Shown piece after piece: positions 5,761 to 54,049 of a stretch of DNA of 64,000 nucleotides. The notes beneath the pieces were generated by a model. That model saw nothing but the letters and a program-made list of their open reading frames with translations. It had not been told where the DNA came from and did no database searches. A program made the position numbers and the translations under genes. Each line of letters starts with the position of its first letter. The stretch's first letter is position 1. The stretch is from Arthrobacter antibioticus (GTDB taxonomy: Bacteria; Actinomycetota; Actinomycetes; Actinomycetales; Micrococcaceae), in NCBI RefSeq assembly GCF_030063205.1, contig NZ_JASISQ010000001.1, forward strand, positions 361,152-425,151, read 5' to 3'.

Positions 5761-6598
5761 CTATAAGCCCGCCAGCGTCTCCACCGTGGCTGCGCGTAAC
5801 GCGGCAACCTGCGGTCCGGCAACGAGGATACCCCGGCTGGAGGTCGCCAGCACAGCCGGATACGCAGTACCAAATGTAGCCCGCATATTTACCCCGGTGG
5901 CGCCTTGCGCTCCGAGACCCGGCGCCAGTAGCGGCCCGTGGACCGCAGCAAGATCTATACCCAAATCAGCTAGTGCACCTCCCACTGTGGCACCAACAAC
6001 CAGGCCCACAGATCCCAGTGCTTCAGCGGCATAGCGTTGATTTTCGACGCCTGCAGCCTCCACGATGCGCTTGGCAACAGAATCGCTGCCACCCACGTGC
6101 TGTACCGAGGCACCCTCCGGATTAGAGGTTAGGGCAAGCACAAAGACACCCCTGCCGTTCGCTGCTGCCATCTCAAGAGCCGGGCGCAGCGATTCAAAAC
6201 CCAAGTAAGGGCTTAGCGTTACGGCATCAGCCGCCAAGGCTGAACCATCTCGCAGCCATGCGTCAGCGTAGCCAGCCATGGTAGAGCCGATGTCTCCGCG
6301 TTTAGCGTCAGCGATGGTCAAAAGCTGCGCCTGAGCAGCGGCAGCCAGCAACTCCTCCAAGGCGGCCATACCAGCGGAGCCGTGGCGCTCGTAGAGAGCC
6401 ACCTGTGGTTTGATGGCTGCTGCTATCGGCGCCACAGCCTCAAGCACAGTTCGTGAGAACCTCCGCACGCCATCGGCGCTGTCATCCAGCCCCCATGCTG
6501 CCAGGAGGGCCGGATGCGGGTCGATACCCACACAAAGGGGTCCCCTGGCAAGCATGGCTGCGGCAAGCCGAGCCCCAAAAGGCTCCCGCTCACCGCTG

Positions 6599-6609
<11 letters not shown>
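5761..6609 (-). CDS. pyrF: Orotidine-5'-phosphate decarboxylase
   Basis: Last step of UMP synthesis: decarboxylates OMP. The protein is 282 residues, of the long type-2 form found in actinobacteria and myxobacteria. The catalytic motif [10 protein letters not shown] is at 101-110 and the N-terminal strand LCVGIDPHP at 25-33. A longer reading frame begins at 6798, but its first 63 residues lie inside carB; the ATG at 6609 overlaps the carB stop by 11 bases and gives the expected N-terminus. It follows carB directly, so it is translated from the pyrimidine operon. Confidence 0.96.
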
Positions 6610-9909
<3,300 letters not shown>

Positions 9910-48399: not shown

Positions 48400-49086
48400 T
48401 TACGCTTCTCCTTTAATCATCCGAATAAACAGTTCATGGATGCGGCGCTCCCCTGTCACTTCCGGGTGGAAGGAGGTGGCCAGCAAATGCCTGGTACGAA
48501 CGGCGACTGCACGAACTTCTAAATCAATCCTATCGTTTAGTGCAGCTCGGGGCGGTTTCACAGTGGCCAGCACTTCCACGTTGGGCCCCACACGCTCGAC
48601 CCAGGGTGCCCGGATGAACACAGCATGTAGAGGAATTTCGGGCTCCCCCGGCTGGGTTAGACCGTGGAACTGAAGTTCGGTTTCAAAGGAATCCACCTGC
48701 CGGCCAAAGGCGTTGCGGCGCACTGTAATGTCCAGGCCACCGAAGGTACATTGCGGATTCCCGGACCCGTCGGTCGCGGGATCGGCGATTTCATCTGCAA
48801 GCAGGATCATGCCCGCGCAGCTGCCGTAAACGGGCATTCCTGCTGCAATACGGTCAATCAGCGGCTCGCGCATGCCAAAAATGCGGCTGAGTTTATCGAT
48901 CGTGGTTGACTCCCCACCCGGGATCACCAGCCCGTCAACCCCGGCCAGTTCACTCGGACGGCGCACCCCCACTGCCTTTGCACCGCAATCCATCAGCGCA
49001 TTCGCGTGCTCTCTGACGTCGCCTTGCAATGCCAAAATGCCAATAGTTGGTCCGGACGAGGTGGCGGAAGTGGTTTTAAAAGTCAC
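48400..49086 (-). CDS. pdxT: Pyridoxal 5'-phosphate synthase glutaminase subunit
   Basis: Hydrolyses glutamine and passes ammonia to PdxS for vitamin B6 synthesis. From the GTG at 49086 it has 228 residues; starts at 49110 (ATG) and 49170 are also in frame. The class I amidotransferase signature is present: [10 protein letters not shown], the nucleophile Cys in YGSCAGMI, and the His-Glu in [15 protein letters not shown]. Its normal partner pdxS is not adjacent but lies 6.8 kb away, past four other genes. Confidence 0.95.
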
Positions 49087-49220
49087 CGTTTCATCATAGA
49101 TGGGCCTCATCTCACACAGGGAACTTCGTCTACGCGCCGGAGCGGATGGACCGCGTAGCTCTGCAAGCAAGTAGCATTGTCCGCAGGACTGACGTACTAC
49201 AGAGACGAGGAACTTAGAGT

Positions 49221-51905
49221 ATGTGCGGAATCGCTGGTTACTACGGTTATGGGGAAGATCTATCCCTGTTACAGCAGATGAATGCGTGCATGGTGCACCG
49301 CGGCCCCGATGGTGAGGGTGTGTACACGCACGGCAACGTAGGACTGGCCCATCGCCGTCTTTCCATCATTGATGTGGCCCACGGCCAGGAGCCAATGTAC
49401 AGCGCGGACGGGCAGACAGTTCTGGTCTACAACGGCGAAGTGTACAACTACCTCGACCTGCGAGCCGAGCTAGAAGCCCTGGGACGAGTTTTCACCACCC
49501 AATCGGACACCGAAGTTGTGTTGCAATCCTACGAGCAGTGGGGGGACGCGGCCTTCGATAAATTTAACGGAATGTTTGGTTTCGCCATTCATGACCTCAA
49601 AAACAACCGTCTGGTGCTAGCCCGCGATCACTTCGGCATCAAACCTCTGTACTACGCCACGGCAGGTACTGCCGAGGCTCCCACCCTGCTCTTTGGCTCA
49701 GAAATCAAGCCCTTGTTGGCCACCAACAAGCTTGAACGCAGTGTTGATGAGCGCATTTTGTTCCGCTACCTGCAGTTTAGAATCCACGACGACGAGCCAG
49801 CCACGTTCTTTGCCGGCGTGCAGAAGCTGATGCCAGGGGAGAAACTGGTGGTCAATACCGCAGATTCCGAGGCTGGAGTAGCCGGGACCGTGCGCATCAG
49901 TTCTTACACTCGGTTCAAAGAAGAACTCGCGGAGCTCGCCAAGATTGAAACCCCGTACTCACAGGCTGTCATTGACGAGTACCGGGACCGTTTCACCGAA
50001 GGTGTGCGCCTGCGTCTGCAGTCAGAAGTCCCCGTAGGCACCGCCTTGTCAGGGGGCCTGGACTCTTCCGCCGTCGTGGCAACTATCAACAAGCTCATGC
50101 AGGAAAATGCTGCCGCAACTGATTCTTTGGGCGCCAAGCAGCAAACATTTTCGGCTGTGTTCCCAAACTCCATCAATGATGAAGAGAAATACGCAGATGC
50201 CGTCCTCGCCCGGTGCGAGGGCAATGTCATCAGCCACAAGATTTTGCCGCAGCCAAGTGAGTTTGTTGAAGATCTGGAAGATTTTGTGCGGACCATGGAG
50301 GAGCCTGTCATCTCCTCGGGTCCTTATGCCCAGTATCAGGTCATGCGCGAGGCCTCCAAGCATGTCTCAGTGCTGCTTGATGGTCAGGGCGCCGATGAGA
50401 TGATGGCCGGATACATCCCCTATTACTTCGCCTACTTGCGCCAGCTCAAAAAGAACGGCCAGAACGCGAAACTTGCCAAGGAGCTTGTGGCGAGTTCAGA
50501 TATCCTGTTCCGGCTCGCTCGTTTCCGGATTCAAGGCAAGCTCACCTTTAAGAAAGAAGTGGGCATTTCTGCCCTGCTGGATAAGAAGTTCACGGCAAAA
50601 TACAAGGCCGAAAAATTCGCCAACATCGCCGATAACTTGAAGCTGCGCCTCATCGATGACCTGTTCCACAAGTCATTGCCTGCTGTGCTGCGTTATGAAG
50701 ACAAGAACACCATGCGATTTTCCTTGGAGGGCCGCGTGCCGTTCTTGGACAAAGAAGTGGTGAAGTTCCTGTTCAGCCTTGACGATGAGTCAATCATCAA
50801 AGGCGGTTGGAACAAGCGGATCTTGCGCGATGCTACACGAGACTTGCTCCCGGAAATGATCAGCAACCGTCGCAACAAAATTGGTTTCACCACTCCTGAA
50901 GCTGAATGGTTTTCACACATGAAAGAGAAGATCTATGAGATCTTCCTTTCCAGCTCCTTTGGTGCCCGCCCGTACTGGAACCAGGACGCGGTTATTTACG
51001 CGTTCGAGGAACTCCTCAGCGGCAAGAGCTCAGGTTCCACCATGGTGTTCTGGCGTTTGATCAACACTGAGTTGTGGTTGCGCGAGTTCTTTGACGAGCC
51101 TGAAATCAAGGCCGGCATTGAGGGTAAGAGCGATTACATTCCCAACGCGGACAAGCAATTAAACATCAGCGTGCCAGGCGGTGCCGGAACTTTCCGACGT
51201 TACCCGCTGCGCACAGAGGTTTTCTACAAAGAAACCGACTTTGATCCCACGGCCATGACGTATGTGAAACGCTTTTTTGATGGCCTGCCCACAGCTGGCG
51301 GGGACCATGGCACGGCCACTGCTGACACACCGTGGTACTTGTTTGTCTCTGAAAAGATTGTTGCCATGACCCAGGGCCGCTCCATTCCTGTCTGGGACAT
51401 CAAGGTCAGCAATGCTGCACGCTTTTTCAGTAAGTTTGTAACCCGCAACCCGGGCGGCATTGGATTAGCCAGTCCATGGTCAATGCAGCTTGCCATCGAC
51501 GAGGTGGGTTTGCCGCGCATTATGTACGCCTCGGCCCGCAGCGTCATCGGTAAGCTCCAAGGAAAATCCGGGGTATTTTACGAAGTGGTGGGCCACAATA
51601 TCAACGCCATCGATGGTGCCGCCGGATACCAGGTTGGCACCTCAACCCACTCGGTAAAGTACGCCCCTATCGACCCCGACGGCGTAGCAGCCCGCTTGAG
51701 CGCCTTGGTGCGGGCAAGCGTTCCGGCAGAGTTCGCAGCAACCTTTGCGGGAACAGCCATCATGGACGCCAACGATCTGGGAGTTGTTGCCTTGGGCCAT
51801 GACACCGCCCTGACCACGGCAGTCCTTGAGGACATCTTCCGTGACAACCCACAGGGACAGACCACCGAGACCACTCCGATGTCTCTGGTGTTCACCCAAA
51901 AGTAG
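49221..51905 (+). CDS. asnB: Asparagine synthetase (glutamine-hydrolysing) fused to a CofE-like domain
   Basis: An 894-residue protein, about 250 longer than usual AsnB. Residues 2-190 are a class II glutaminase with the catalytic Cys2 ([11 protein letters not shown]). Residues about 210-640 are the ATP-dependent amide synthase; the PP-loop [11 protein letters not shown] is at 275-285. From about 660 a further domain begins ([15 protein letters not shown]) with [42 protein letters not shown]; this matches my knowledge of the F420-0:gamma-glutamyl ligase (CofE, PF01996) family. The join is in one frame with no stop. What the added domain does here is unknown; it might link glutamyl or amide transfer to the synthetase. 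AsnB function is well supported. Confidence 0.85.
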
Positions 51906-52000: not shown

Positions 52001-54049
52001 ATGACCGTCGAGAACTCAACCAACCCGTTTCTGGCACCGAGTGAACTCCCCCACCAGTTACCTAATTTTGCTGCCATCGGGCCCGAAGACTATGTGGCCG
52101 GCTTCGAAGCGGGGTTTGCGCAGCAGTTGGCGGAAGTTCACGCCATCACAGAGAATCCAGAGCCCGCCTCGTTTGCCAACACCGTTGCGGCGATGGAGCG
52201 CAGCGGCGCGATTCTGACGCGTGTTGCTAATGCGTTTTTCAACATGGCAGGGGCCAATGCCACCCCAGTCATACAGGAACTGGAGACGCATATTGGTCCG
52301 CGGGTTTCCGCCCATGACGACTCGGTGCTACTCAATGGCGCTCTTTACGGGCGGTTCCTTGACGTGCCCGCCGATGGGCTGGACGCTGAGTCCGCTCGGC
52401 TCCTCTCCGAATGGCAGAAGACTTTCACGCTCGCTGGCGTAGCCCTGACTGCTGCTGATCAAGACCGTCTGCGTGAGCTCAACGGGCAGCTGGCTTCTCT
52501 CAGCACAGAGTTTTCTCAACTGGTCATGCAGGCAGGTAACGAGGCTGCTATCCATGTACAGGATCCGACCGAGCTGGATGGGCTCAGTGCGGATGACCTT
52601 GCGACGGCGGCTGCGGCAGCCATTACAGCCGGGCACTCTGGTGGATACTTGCTCACCTTGATTCTGCCCACCGCCCAGCCAGCCTTGAAGGTACTCACCA
52701 ACAGAGACACCAGGCGCAGACTGCATCTTGCTTCTGTTGGGCGCGGCGGCGCCGCTGCGGACTCTGACAACGAGTCCGACGGCGCCACTGTGGTGCTGGA
52801 GCTAGCCGCAACAATGGCGGCGTTGCGCGCCGAGAGAGCCGAACTCCTTGGCTTTGCTTCCGAGGCTGAACGCACCATCGAGTCCCAGACGGCACCCTCA
52901 TTGGAGGCTGTCCATGAGATGCTCTCCCCCATCACCGCGGCTGCTGCCCATAACGCGGCGTCCGAGGCGAAGAGACTGCGCGAGGTTGCCGGCCACGACC
53001 TTGAAGCATGGGACACGGCGTTTTATGCTGAGCAAATTCGTCGGGATGAATACGGCGTTGATCTGGCAGCTCTGCGCCCGTGGTTTGAACTTGAATCCGT
53101 GCTGCGCAAAGGCGTGTTCTATGCTGCAACTCGCCTGTACGGAGTTTCTTTTACCGAGCGAACAGATTTGGCTGGTTACCACCCCGATGTGCGCGTGTGG
53201 GAAGTATTCAACGCTGACGGTTCCGCGCTGGGGCTATTTCTTGGCGACTATTACACCCGGGACACCAAACGCGGCGGTGCCTGGATGAATTCCTTCGTCG
53301 AGCAATCGGCTCTTGAGGGAACCACCGCCGTCGTGGTTAACAACCTAAACATCCCGAAGCCACCTTTCGGTGAACCCACGCTGCTGACTTTTGATGAAGT
53401 GGTGACGTGCTTCCATGAATTTGGTCATGCCCTGCACGGACTTTTCTCCGACGTTACCTACCCCACTTTTTCGGGCACAAATGTACCGCGAGATTTTGTG
53501 GAATACCCCTCTCAGGTCAATGAGATGTGGATCTTGTGGCCAGAGGTACTTGAGAACTATGCCACGCATCATCTCACCGGGGAGCCCCTACCTGCTGGCA
53601 CGGCCAAAAAATTGACCGATGCTGCACTGTGGGGACAAGGCTTTGCCACCGCAGAATATTTAGGCGCTGCGCTACTTGATCTGGCGTGGCACGAGCTAGC
53701 TCCAGGCTCGGTTGTCAGCGACCCGCCAGCTTTTGAGACGACGGCACTTGCCGCTGTGGGACTCGATATTCCGGCTCTGCCGCCGCGCTACAGGACGGGC
53801 TACTTCAGTCATATTTTCGCCGGTGGTTATGCTGCCGGATACTACTCATATATCTGGTCCGAGGTGCTCGACGCAGACACAGTGGCGTGGTTTAAGGCCA
53901 ATGGCGGGCTGACACGATCCAATGGAGAGCACTTCCGCAACACCCTGCTGTGCCGTGGTTTCTCCGTTGACCCCCTGAGAGCCTTCCACGACTTTGCTGG
54001 CCGAGACGCCAATACCCTGCCCCTGCTCGCCCGTCGGGGGCTGGTCTAA
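52001..54049 (+). CDS. M3-family oligopeptidase (dipeptidyl carboxypeptidase / oligopeptidase A type)
   Basis: Zinc metalloprotease that cuts short peptides in the cytoplasm. The 682-residue protein has the zinc site HEFGHALHG (HExxH) in FDEVVTCFHEFGHALHG and the third ligand Glu in the following FVEYPSQVNEMW. No signal peptide. The N-terminal half is helical, typical of the M3 fold. The sequence does not let me choose between oligopeptidase A and dipeptidyl carboxypeptidase. It follows the asnB terminator and is followed, four bases later, by a GNAT gene. Confidence 0.92.
   Translation: MTVENSTNPFLAPSELPHQLPNFAAIGPEDYVAGFEAGFAQQLAEVHAITENPEPASFANTVAAMERSGAILTRVANAFFNMAGANATPVIQELETHIGPRVSAHDDSVLLNGALYGRFLDVPADGLDAESARLLSEWQKTFTLAGVALTAADQDRLRELNGQLASLSTEFSQLVMQAGNEAAIHVQDPTELDGLSADDLATAAAAAITAGHSGGYLLTLILPTAQPALKVLTNRDTRRRLHLASVGRGGAAADSDNESDGATVVLELAATMAALRAERAELLGFASEAERTIESQTAPSLEAVHEMLSPITAAAAHNAASEAKRLREVAGHDLEAWDTAFYAEQIRRDEYGVDLAALRPWFELESVLRKGVFYAATRLYGVSFTERTDLAGYHPDVRVWEVFNADGSALGLFLGDYYTRDTKRGGAWMNSFVEQSALEGTTAVVVNNLNIPKPPFGEPTLLTFDEVVTCFHEFGHALHGLFSDVTYPTFSGTNVPRDFVEYPSQVNEMWILWPEVLENYATHHLTGEPLPAGTAKKLTDAALWGQGFATAEYLGAALLDLAWHELAPGSVVSDPPAFETTALAAVGLDIPALPPRYRTGYFSHIFAGGYAAGYYSYIWSEVLDADTVAWFKANGGLTRSNGEHFRNTLLCRGFSVDPLRAFHDFAGRDANTLPLLARRGLV

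Follow-up and report, generated by a model that had tools for sequence, protein, structure and literature searches.

The window analyzed here, a 64,000-nucleotide stretch of the Arthrobacter antibioticus genome, contains a stop-free open reading frame of 894 codons on the forward strand (positions 49221 to 51905). A GAGG-like site lies about 10 bases upstream of the ATG, and the longest overlapping open reading frame on either strand has 139 residues. The initial annotation had described an in-frame fusion of AsnB to a further domain, and this was confirmed: residues 1 to 621 form a complete AsnB-type amidotransferase, and residues 651 to 894 form an additional C-terminal domain. We refer to the family of this tail domain, a distant relative of CofE, as COF. 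The fusion gene is the sole match to Asn_synthase (PF00733) and the sole match to PF01996 found in the 3.79-Mb A. antibioticus genome. Its divergent neighbor is pdxT (48400 to 49170, reverse strand), which probably starts within the open reading frame listed, and the next gene downstream encodes an M3-family, Dcp-like dipeptidase (52001 to 54049, forward strand); both were assigned with Pfam and TIGR models.

The AsnB-type half (49221 to 51083) comprises an Ntn glutaminase with Cys2 followed by a PP-loop synthetase, as identified by Pfam, TIGR01536, and motif reading. The Pfam matches were GATase_7 (9.7e-44), GATase_6 (7.7e-41), and Asn_synthase (1.3e-64, residues 253 to 621), and the asparagine synthase model TIGR01536 scored 421 bits against a cut-off of 267.1. 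Cys2 and the PP-loop SGGLDSS (residues 277 to 283; 50049 to 50069) stand at the positions given in the initial annotation, and the NGE, SDTE, DGQGADE, and RNKIGF motifs are intact as well. A phmmer alignment to 1ct9 places the aspartate of GxGADE in the A. antibioticus protein, but the alignment is not reliable at the arginine position; these are the two residues that we take to bind aspartate in 1ct9-type AsnB. The fusion protein thus resembles the AsnB of TIGR01536 and 1ct9 in its complete glutaminase and synthetase motifs, but it differs in having a tail of about 250 residues, in belonging to a COF-tied subfamily of its own, and in the repeated loss of motifs among its relatives. A linker of variable length, placed from alignments (51096 to 51194, forward strand), lies between the two halves.

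The tail domain and CofE

COF occupies positions 51171 to 51902 of the forward strand, as delimited by Pfam, alignments, and profile comparisons. When the isolated tail was compared with PF01996, it gave an E value of 0.0032 and 17.5 bits, below the cut-off of 25, and the match covered model positions 34 to 138 of 218, about half of the model. The full-length protein scored 14.4 bits and the genome search gave 16.5 bits, both also under this cut-off. The tail found no match in the PDB by phmmer up to an E value of 10 and had no hit to the CofE equivalog model TIGR01916, whose cut-off is 180.65 bits; among the relatives scanned, the best score on this model was the 34.9 bits of L110. Some COF relatives exceed the PF01996 cut-off (L107, 48.4 bits; L113, 46.8; L110, 40.2; L120, 36.6; L119, 34.5; L117, 31.9), and L121, at 16.3 bits, falls below it.

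A profile built from an alignment of 30 COF tails from across the phylum (A2) matched the CofE structures 2phn, 7uld, and 2g9i at E values of 1.2e-6 to 1.6e-6, with the next, unrelated structure at 0.13. Using hhalign, A2 was compared with 18 CofE/FbiB sequences, giving a probability of 97.4% and an E value of 1e-11 (with a library of one); the profile of 15 nearer relatives only (A1) gave just 25.6%. The 18 sequences were called CofE/FbiB from their PF01996 scores of 138 to 247 bits, and three of the 21 such loci (L221, L223, and L226) were left out. The assignment of the tail to CofE/PF01996 in the initial annotation therefore holds as remote homology to solved CofE in the PF01996 superfamily, detected at the level of the family profile, but not as membership, since the scores lie below the PF01996 and TIGR01916 cut-offs. 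By these profile comparisons, COF is a distant relative of CofE and not a CofE.

Three C-terminal stretches had been quoted as CofE motifs. All are present (residues 709 to 720, 759 to 772, and 784 to 799), but only the first is clear as such. The parts of COF and CofE that align are the start GDxL..pGD..SEKIVA.tQGR, a P.DPD..A..L stretch, and two aspartates; the acceptor part of CofE is unaligned. The likeness of the start to CofE and the N-terminal domain of FbiB (PF01996, TIGR01916; 2phn, 7uld) is apparent from pGD..SEKIVA.tQGR versus DGDVVVVSKIVSKAEGR, and residues 710 to 720 (51348 to 51380) are the counterpart of the CofE SKIVSKAEGR-type motif in the hhalign and A2 alignments. The P-x-DPD...A..L stretch and the two aligned aspartates, which the initial annotation had not mentioned, are better evidence than the quoted stretches. 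Asp798, within IDG (51612 to 51614), aligns with the aspartate of CofE VDASN, and Asp849, the first residue of DANDLG (residues 849 to 854; 51765 to 51782), aligns with that of CofE TDT. Both belong to the 14 columns that are invariant in all 30 rows of A2 over distant lineages. The same is true of N-P-x-G (residues 876 to 879) within DNPQGQ (residues 875 to 880; 51843 to 51860), the signature of the COF family, to which nothing in the aligned CofE/FbiB sequences clearly corresponds. The two aligned aspartates presumably bind metal in CofE, and on this basis COF is predicted to bind nucleotide and metal.

COF also differs from CofE. Its own signature is DNPxGQ, and it scores far below the equivalog cut-off. 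CofE has been described with GTP and a pair of Mn2+ ions, and F92 and R234 are named as its contacts to F420 (PMC10861534). The A2 profile matches 2phn only in segments 7 to 73 and 119 to 157, and both F420 contacts lie outside these segments.

Distribution of COF and its association with AsnB

The fusion is a single frame at each of 27 loci from named relatives, whose titles are Micrococcaceae except for one and whose hosts include Arthrobacter psychrochitiniphilus, Specibacter, Psychromicrobium, Acaricomes, and Tersicoccus. Among 58 relatives examined, the tail domain sits in a frame of at least 894 residues in all 25 that bear it. Since the fusion is a single frame in both sets (27/27 and 25/25), a one-off fusion, an assembly join, and a frame artifact were ruled out. 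One locus, L003 (NZ_JADHDY010000014.1, titled Sporosarcina beigongshangi), carries this Arthrobacter locus at 94% identity, flanked by the same neighbors, and is probably mislabeled or contaminated.

Within the genus, all 22 genomes, A. antibioticus included, carry the fusion. In the sample of Micrococcaceae (f1, identified by its named members), COF was found in 63 of 295 genomes and 11 of 32 genera. The sample of the order yielded COF in 37 of 297 genomes (16 from f11, 7 from f17, 9 from f19, and 5 from f1). Here f11 and f17 denote two sister families of the same order with the fusion; the f19 copies that were fetched are standalone genes without AsnB. Across the phylum, 24 of 396 genomes were positive. 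The fusion occurs in Micrococcaceae, in two more families of the order, and, as three further complete fusions (L107, L108, and L109), in families elsewhere in the phylum; L126 is a contig-end fragment of such a fusion. At L110, asnB and COF are abutting genes, separated by nothing but the stop codon of asnB. The initial annotation had raised the possibility that the extension is a common, already described part of AsnB in Micrococcaceae. Common it is, but among the entries listed by searches of the open-licence literature, no description of an AsnB and CofE-like domain pair appeared.

Some further arrangements were observed. The L107 fusion (6305 to 9571, reverse strand; genome G108) has about 217 extra residues N-terminal of AsnB that lack a Pfam match and may be another domain or the result of a wrong start. 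Distant COFs are fused behind TPR repeats at L119 (5987 to 7393, reverse strand), L120 (3416 to 4807, reverse strand), and L121 (5162 to 6532, forward strand). Two records in a phage collection (MT835656.1 and MT838774.1; L236) contain COF relatives of 46% and 30% identity; these are unannotated fecal contigs deposited as Bacteriophage sp. and may be bacterial. A search of the plasmid collection and a search of IMG/VR with one pattern returned no match to COF. A phage or plasmid origin of COF was rejected on these searches, with the two fecal contigs as the only phage-labeled matches.

When the AsnB half was searched against 296 genomes, the three best nonself matches (521, 518, and 494 bits) were all COF linked, and the next scored 285 bits. 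An AsnB tree of 59 rows places the 21 COF-linked ones together on one side of a single branch with moderate support (91/79), and none of 500 label shuffles gave a value as low as the observed COF-linked grouping. This tree excludes the short second open reading frame of L150 and the decayed fusions L136, L138, L139, and L140, and its rows L149 and L196 represent a single gene. On the COF tree, the fusions of f1, f11, and f17 fall in one clade (100/100). Over 46 rows, the AsnB-linked COFs, fused or split, are not one group and need two changes, with standalone copies from f19 and f56 standing among them on weak branches; the latter may have lost AsnB or may never have had one. Of the COF-positive Micrococcaceae checked for PF00733, 44 of 46 have a fused AsnB (6/6 and 38/40), and 52 of the 57 COF-less ones have no PF00733 match (16/17 and 36/40; 34 of the COF-negative genomes in the second set, G722 to G768, were scored negative by their absence from the COF match list). 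The latter count indicates that AsnB is not a general asparagine supply in the family. Judged by similarity and phylogeny, these results show an AsnB subfamily that is tied to COF.

Neighboring genes were predicted with a codon-usage caller, by which starts can be misplaced and genes missed. A pdxT-yebC-ruvC-ruvA block lies upstream of the fusion in 25 of the 27 named relatives, which speaks for vertical inheritance in Micrococcaceae. The downstream neighbors, including the M3 dipeptidase, vary among relatives. Neighbors are conserved within families only; none is common to all families compared, and no shared pathway is evident. Owing to the genes at 52001 and 53994, a NAGGN-type osmolyte trio of adjoining amidotransferase, peptidase, and acetyltransferase genes was considered. 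It was rejected on a TIGR03104 score of 327 against a cut-off of 570 and on the inconstant downstream genes. Standalone distant COFs lie directly upstream of an Orn/Lys/Arg decarboxylase at L123 (5959 to 8123, forward strand) and directly upstream of a class III aminotransferase and a HAD phosphatase at L117 (5930 to 8609, forward strand), with the same cluster order at L118. These neighbors suggest amine or amino acid substrates.

The F420-core synthase model TIGR03551 (FbiC/CofH, E values up to 1e-20) was matched neither in the A. antibioticus genome nor in the other fusion genomes examined from f1, f11, and f17 (23 in all, with A. antibioticus), and this is a further difference from CofE. 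As the genome also has no second PF01996 match, F420 biosynthesis was rejected as the role in A. antibioticus, and F420 is, on gene content, unlikely to be the COF substrate in the fusion hosts of f1, f11, and f17. The gene of these hosts joins an amidotransferase of known type to a separate branch of the CofE superfamily, one that appears to be F420 independent in them. TIGR03551 matched 12 of 57 genomes tested, several of them below the model cut-off, and COF is present in 11 of the 12, namely, in G108, G096, and G375 as a fusion, in G292 as a split pair, and in G300, G426, G325, G059, G386, G369, and G396. A separate strong CofE/FbiB-type gene (194 to 200 bits) is present beside the fused COF in G108, G096, and G375. 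Since many COF hosts outside f1, f11, and f17 match the F420-core synthase, a link to F420 is still conceivable for the distant COFs.

Erosion of the AsnB half

SGGLDSS is present at 46 loci (L002 to L028 and L030 to L048), and the sampled fusions of Micrococcaceae other than those of genus g15 have an intact AsnB half, whose activity there is evidently selected. Of the 23 fusions of f11 and f17, 14 keep the PP-loop, and in 9 it is broken along with changes in other motifs (G045, G692, G567, G616, G507, G591, G454, G577, and G482). Cys2 is lost in all eight broken fusions whose start was read; the reading of G507 begins at about residue 155, with the Cys2 region outside it. COF motifs are kept in all 23, bar a change of QGR to QNR in G671. 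Among the nine degenerate-fusion genomes, only G482 has another strong PF00733 protein. In G709 (L133; 4437 to 6644 and 5735 to 7222, forward strand), AsnB and COF are both intact, but a shift within the linker puts them in separate frames, reflecting either a natural split or misassembly.

The two halves have diverged at different rates where the AsnB motifs are broken. L128 and L130 share 90.8% identity in COF versus 57.0% in AsnB, while the intact pair L128 and L129 shares 90.0% and 94.2%, respectively. The Nei-Gojobori dN/dS ratio in seven pairs with a degenerate member was 0.39 to 1.31 for AsnB and 0.11 to 0.30 for COF, and in three intact pairs it was 0.04 to 0.21 for AsnB and 0.04 to 0.19 for COF. 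The COF values thus span 0.04 to 0.30 over the 10 pairs computed, with dS above 1 in two of them. For A. antibioticus and L144, the ratios for the two halves were 0.040 and 0.038 at a nearly saturated dS of 1.1 to 1.3. These ratios indicate that both halves are under purifying selection within the genus.

A more advanced stage is found in two Micrococcaceae genomes of genus g15, G799 and G732, in which blastp finds only 57 to 59 residues of AsnB followed by a full COF. The corresponding loci are L237 (5442 to 7133, reverse strand) and L238 (5057 to 6820, forward strand). The remnant falls within residues 567 to 625 of the A. antibioticus protein (50919 to 51095, forward strand), the end of the AsnB half. 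The COF of G799 and G732 lies outside the native clade of Micrococcaceae (eight rows, 100/100) and among f11-type sequences, and none of the neighbors of the A. antibioticus fusion gene is found beside COF at these two loci. These copies may be foreign to the family and derive from transfer between families. Two other g15 genomes, G035 and G750, have no listed COF match and no PF00733 match.

On a 33-row COF tree, the pattern of intact and lost AsnB needs six changes, three of which are forced by well-supported branches, and the deep resolution within f11 is poor. The losses of AsnB motifs may therefore number three to six, assuming that lost motifs are never regained. The AsnB half erodes within an open frame because the downstream COF half is needed: a stop or frameshift in a dead AsnB would cut off COF, and a scaffold role for AsnB is unnecessary to explain the open frame.

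Proposed function

Our preferred, if tentative, reading is that the protein is a two-enzyme fusion in which COF is the evolutionarily kept part and AsnB amidates the same product or its precursor. The retained function would reside in COF and is probably a nucleotide-driven amide ligation on a putative non-F420 substrate, with AsnB as an accessory. Much as CofE employs GTP and Mn2+, COF would use a nucleotide and divalent metals to activate a carboxylate on a non-F420 small molecule or a cell envelope precursor and would join to it an amine, such as the amino acid glutamate. The AsnB half would draw ammonia from glutamine and, with ATP, amidate a carboxylate of the COF product or of its precursor. 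In lineages no longer needing the amide, the AsnB half would decay, the frame staying open since COF lies behind it. According to the initial annotation, the fusion could couple amide formation with ligation on a single substrate. Such coupling may occur: the tight linkage of AsnB and COF, in fusions and in one abutting pair, supports coupling, but the repeated loss of AsnB active-site motifs with the tail kept weakens it.

A housekeeping asparagine synthase whose tail, COF, has a regulatory or structural role, for instance as a nucleotide sensor, would agree with the single PF00733 match in the genome, with its score far above the TIGR01536 cut-off, and with the strong constraint on both halves within the genus. 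However, COF outlives AsnB in several lineages and also occurs alone, and the lack of PF00733 in most COF-less Micrococcaceae means that AsnB is not generally needed for asparagine. The decay of the AsnB half disfavors regulation as the sole role of COF, and we regard this explanation as improbable. We think it equally doubtful that COF represents a CofE fold that has decayed or been repurposed, lacks ligase activity, and serves as a binding protein, a hydrolase, or a scaffold that positions the AsnB end. Only about half of the CofE model is matched, and the AsnB end stays joined to COF after the rest is lost and may pack against it. Against this, the 14 invariant columns, with Asp798, Asp849, and N-P-x-G among them, resemble an active site, and the dN/dS of COF is low in all 10 pairs.

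A role in the cell wall, in which AsnB would amidate and COF would extend a carboxylate of a peptidoglycan or envelope precursor, seems rather unlikely, although several observations point toward it. The split pair at L110 is flanked by proC/sepF and divIVA. A MurJ-type gene lies near the distant COFs at L119 (by Pfam) and at L121, L122, and L124 (by blastp cluster), and dapA lies downstream of the fusion in L135 as well as in four additional f11 loci (the latter by blastp cluster). Yet neighbors vary by family, the dapA-RNase J-ftsK order is common in actinobacteria, and, on the COF tree, COFs linked to MurJ belong to the most distant ones. DAP amidation is proven for AsnB homologues of Gram-positive bacteria, and AsnB-type proteins can act in the cell wall instead of in asparagine synthesis (PMC8554201). 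The fusion is like these DAP-amidating AsnB/LtsA enzymes in being an AsnB-type amidotransferase of Gram-positive bacteria that need not make asparagine. It differs in its COF tail, of which the available text on those enzymes makes no mention; they are described there as having lost the aspartate-binding D and R and as having an extra loop (PMC8554201).

Returning to the two-enzyme fusion, a broader proposal that we consider possible is that COF forms its own class of nucleotide-driven amide ligases in Actinobacteria, one that works independently of F420. It would have paired early with AsnB to build and amidate a putative product, and its lineages would have shed the amidotransferase activity later, several times (three to six on the COF tree), with the ligase retained. 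The decay series, from intact through motifless to nearly gone, cleanly illustrates how half of a fused protein can erode while the frame stays open. The gene should be annotated neither as a plain asparagine synthase nor as an F420 enzyme. COF provides a concrete family for tests, namely, a CofE relative that is kept where the F420-core synthase was not found and is joined to a decaying amidotransferase, and its fusion suggests that an as yet undescribed product with an amide bond exists in soil Micrococcaceae and in the two sister families.
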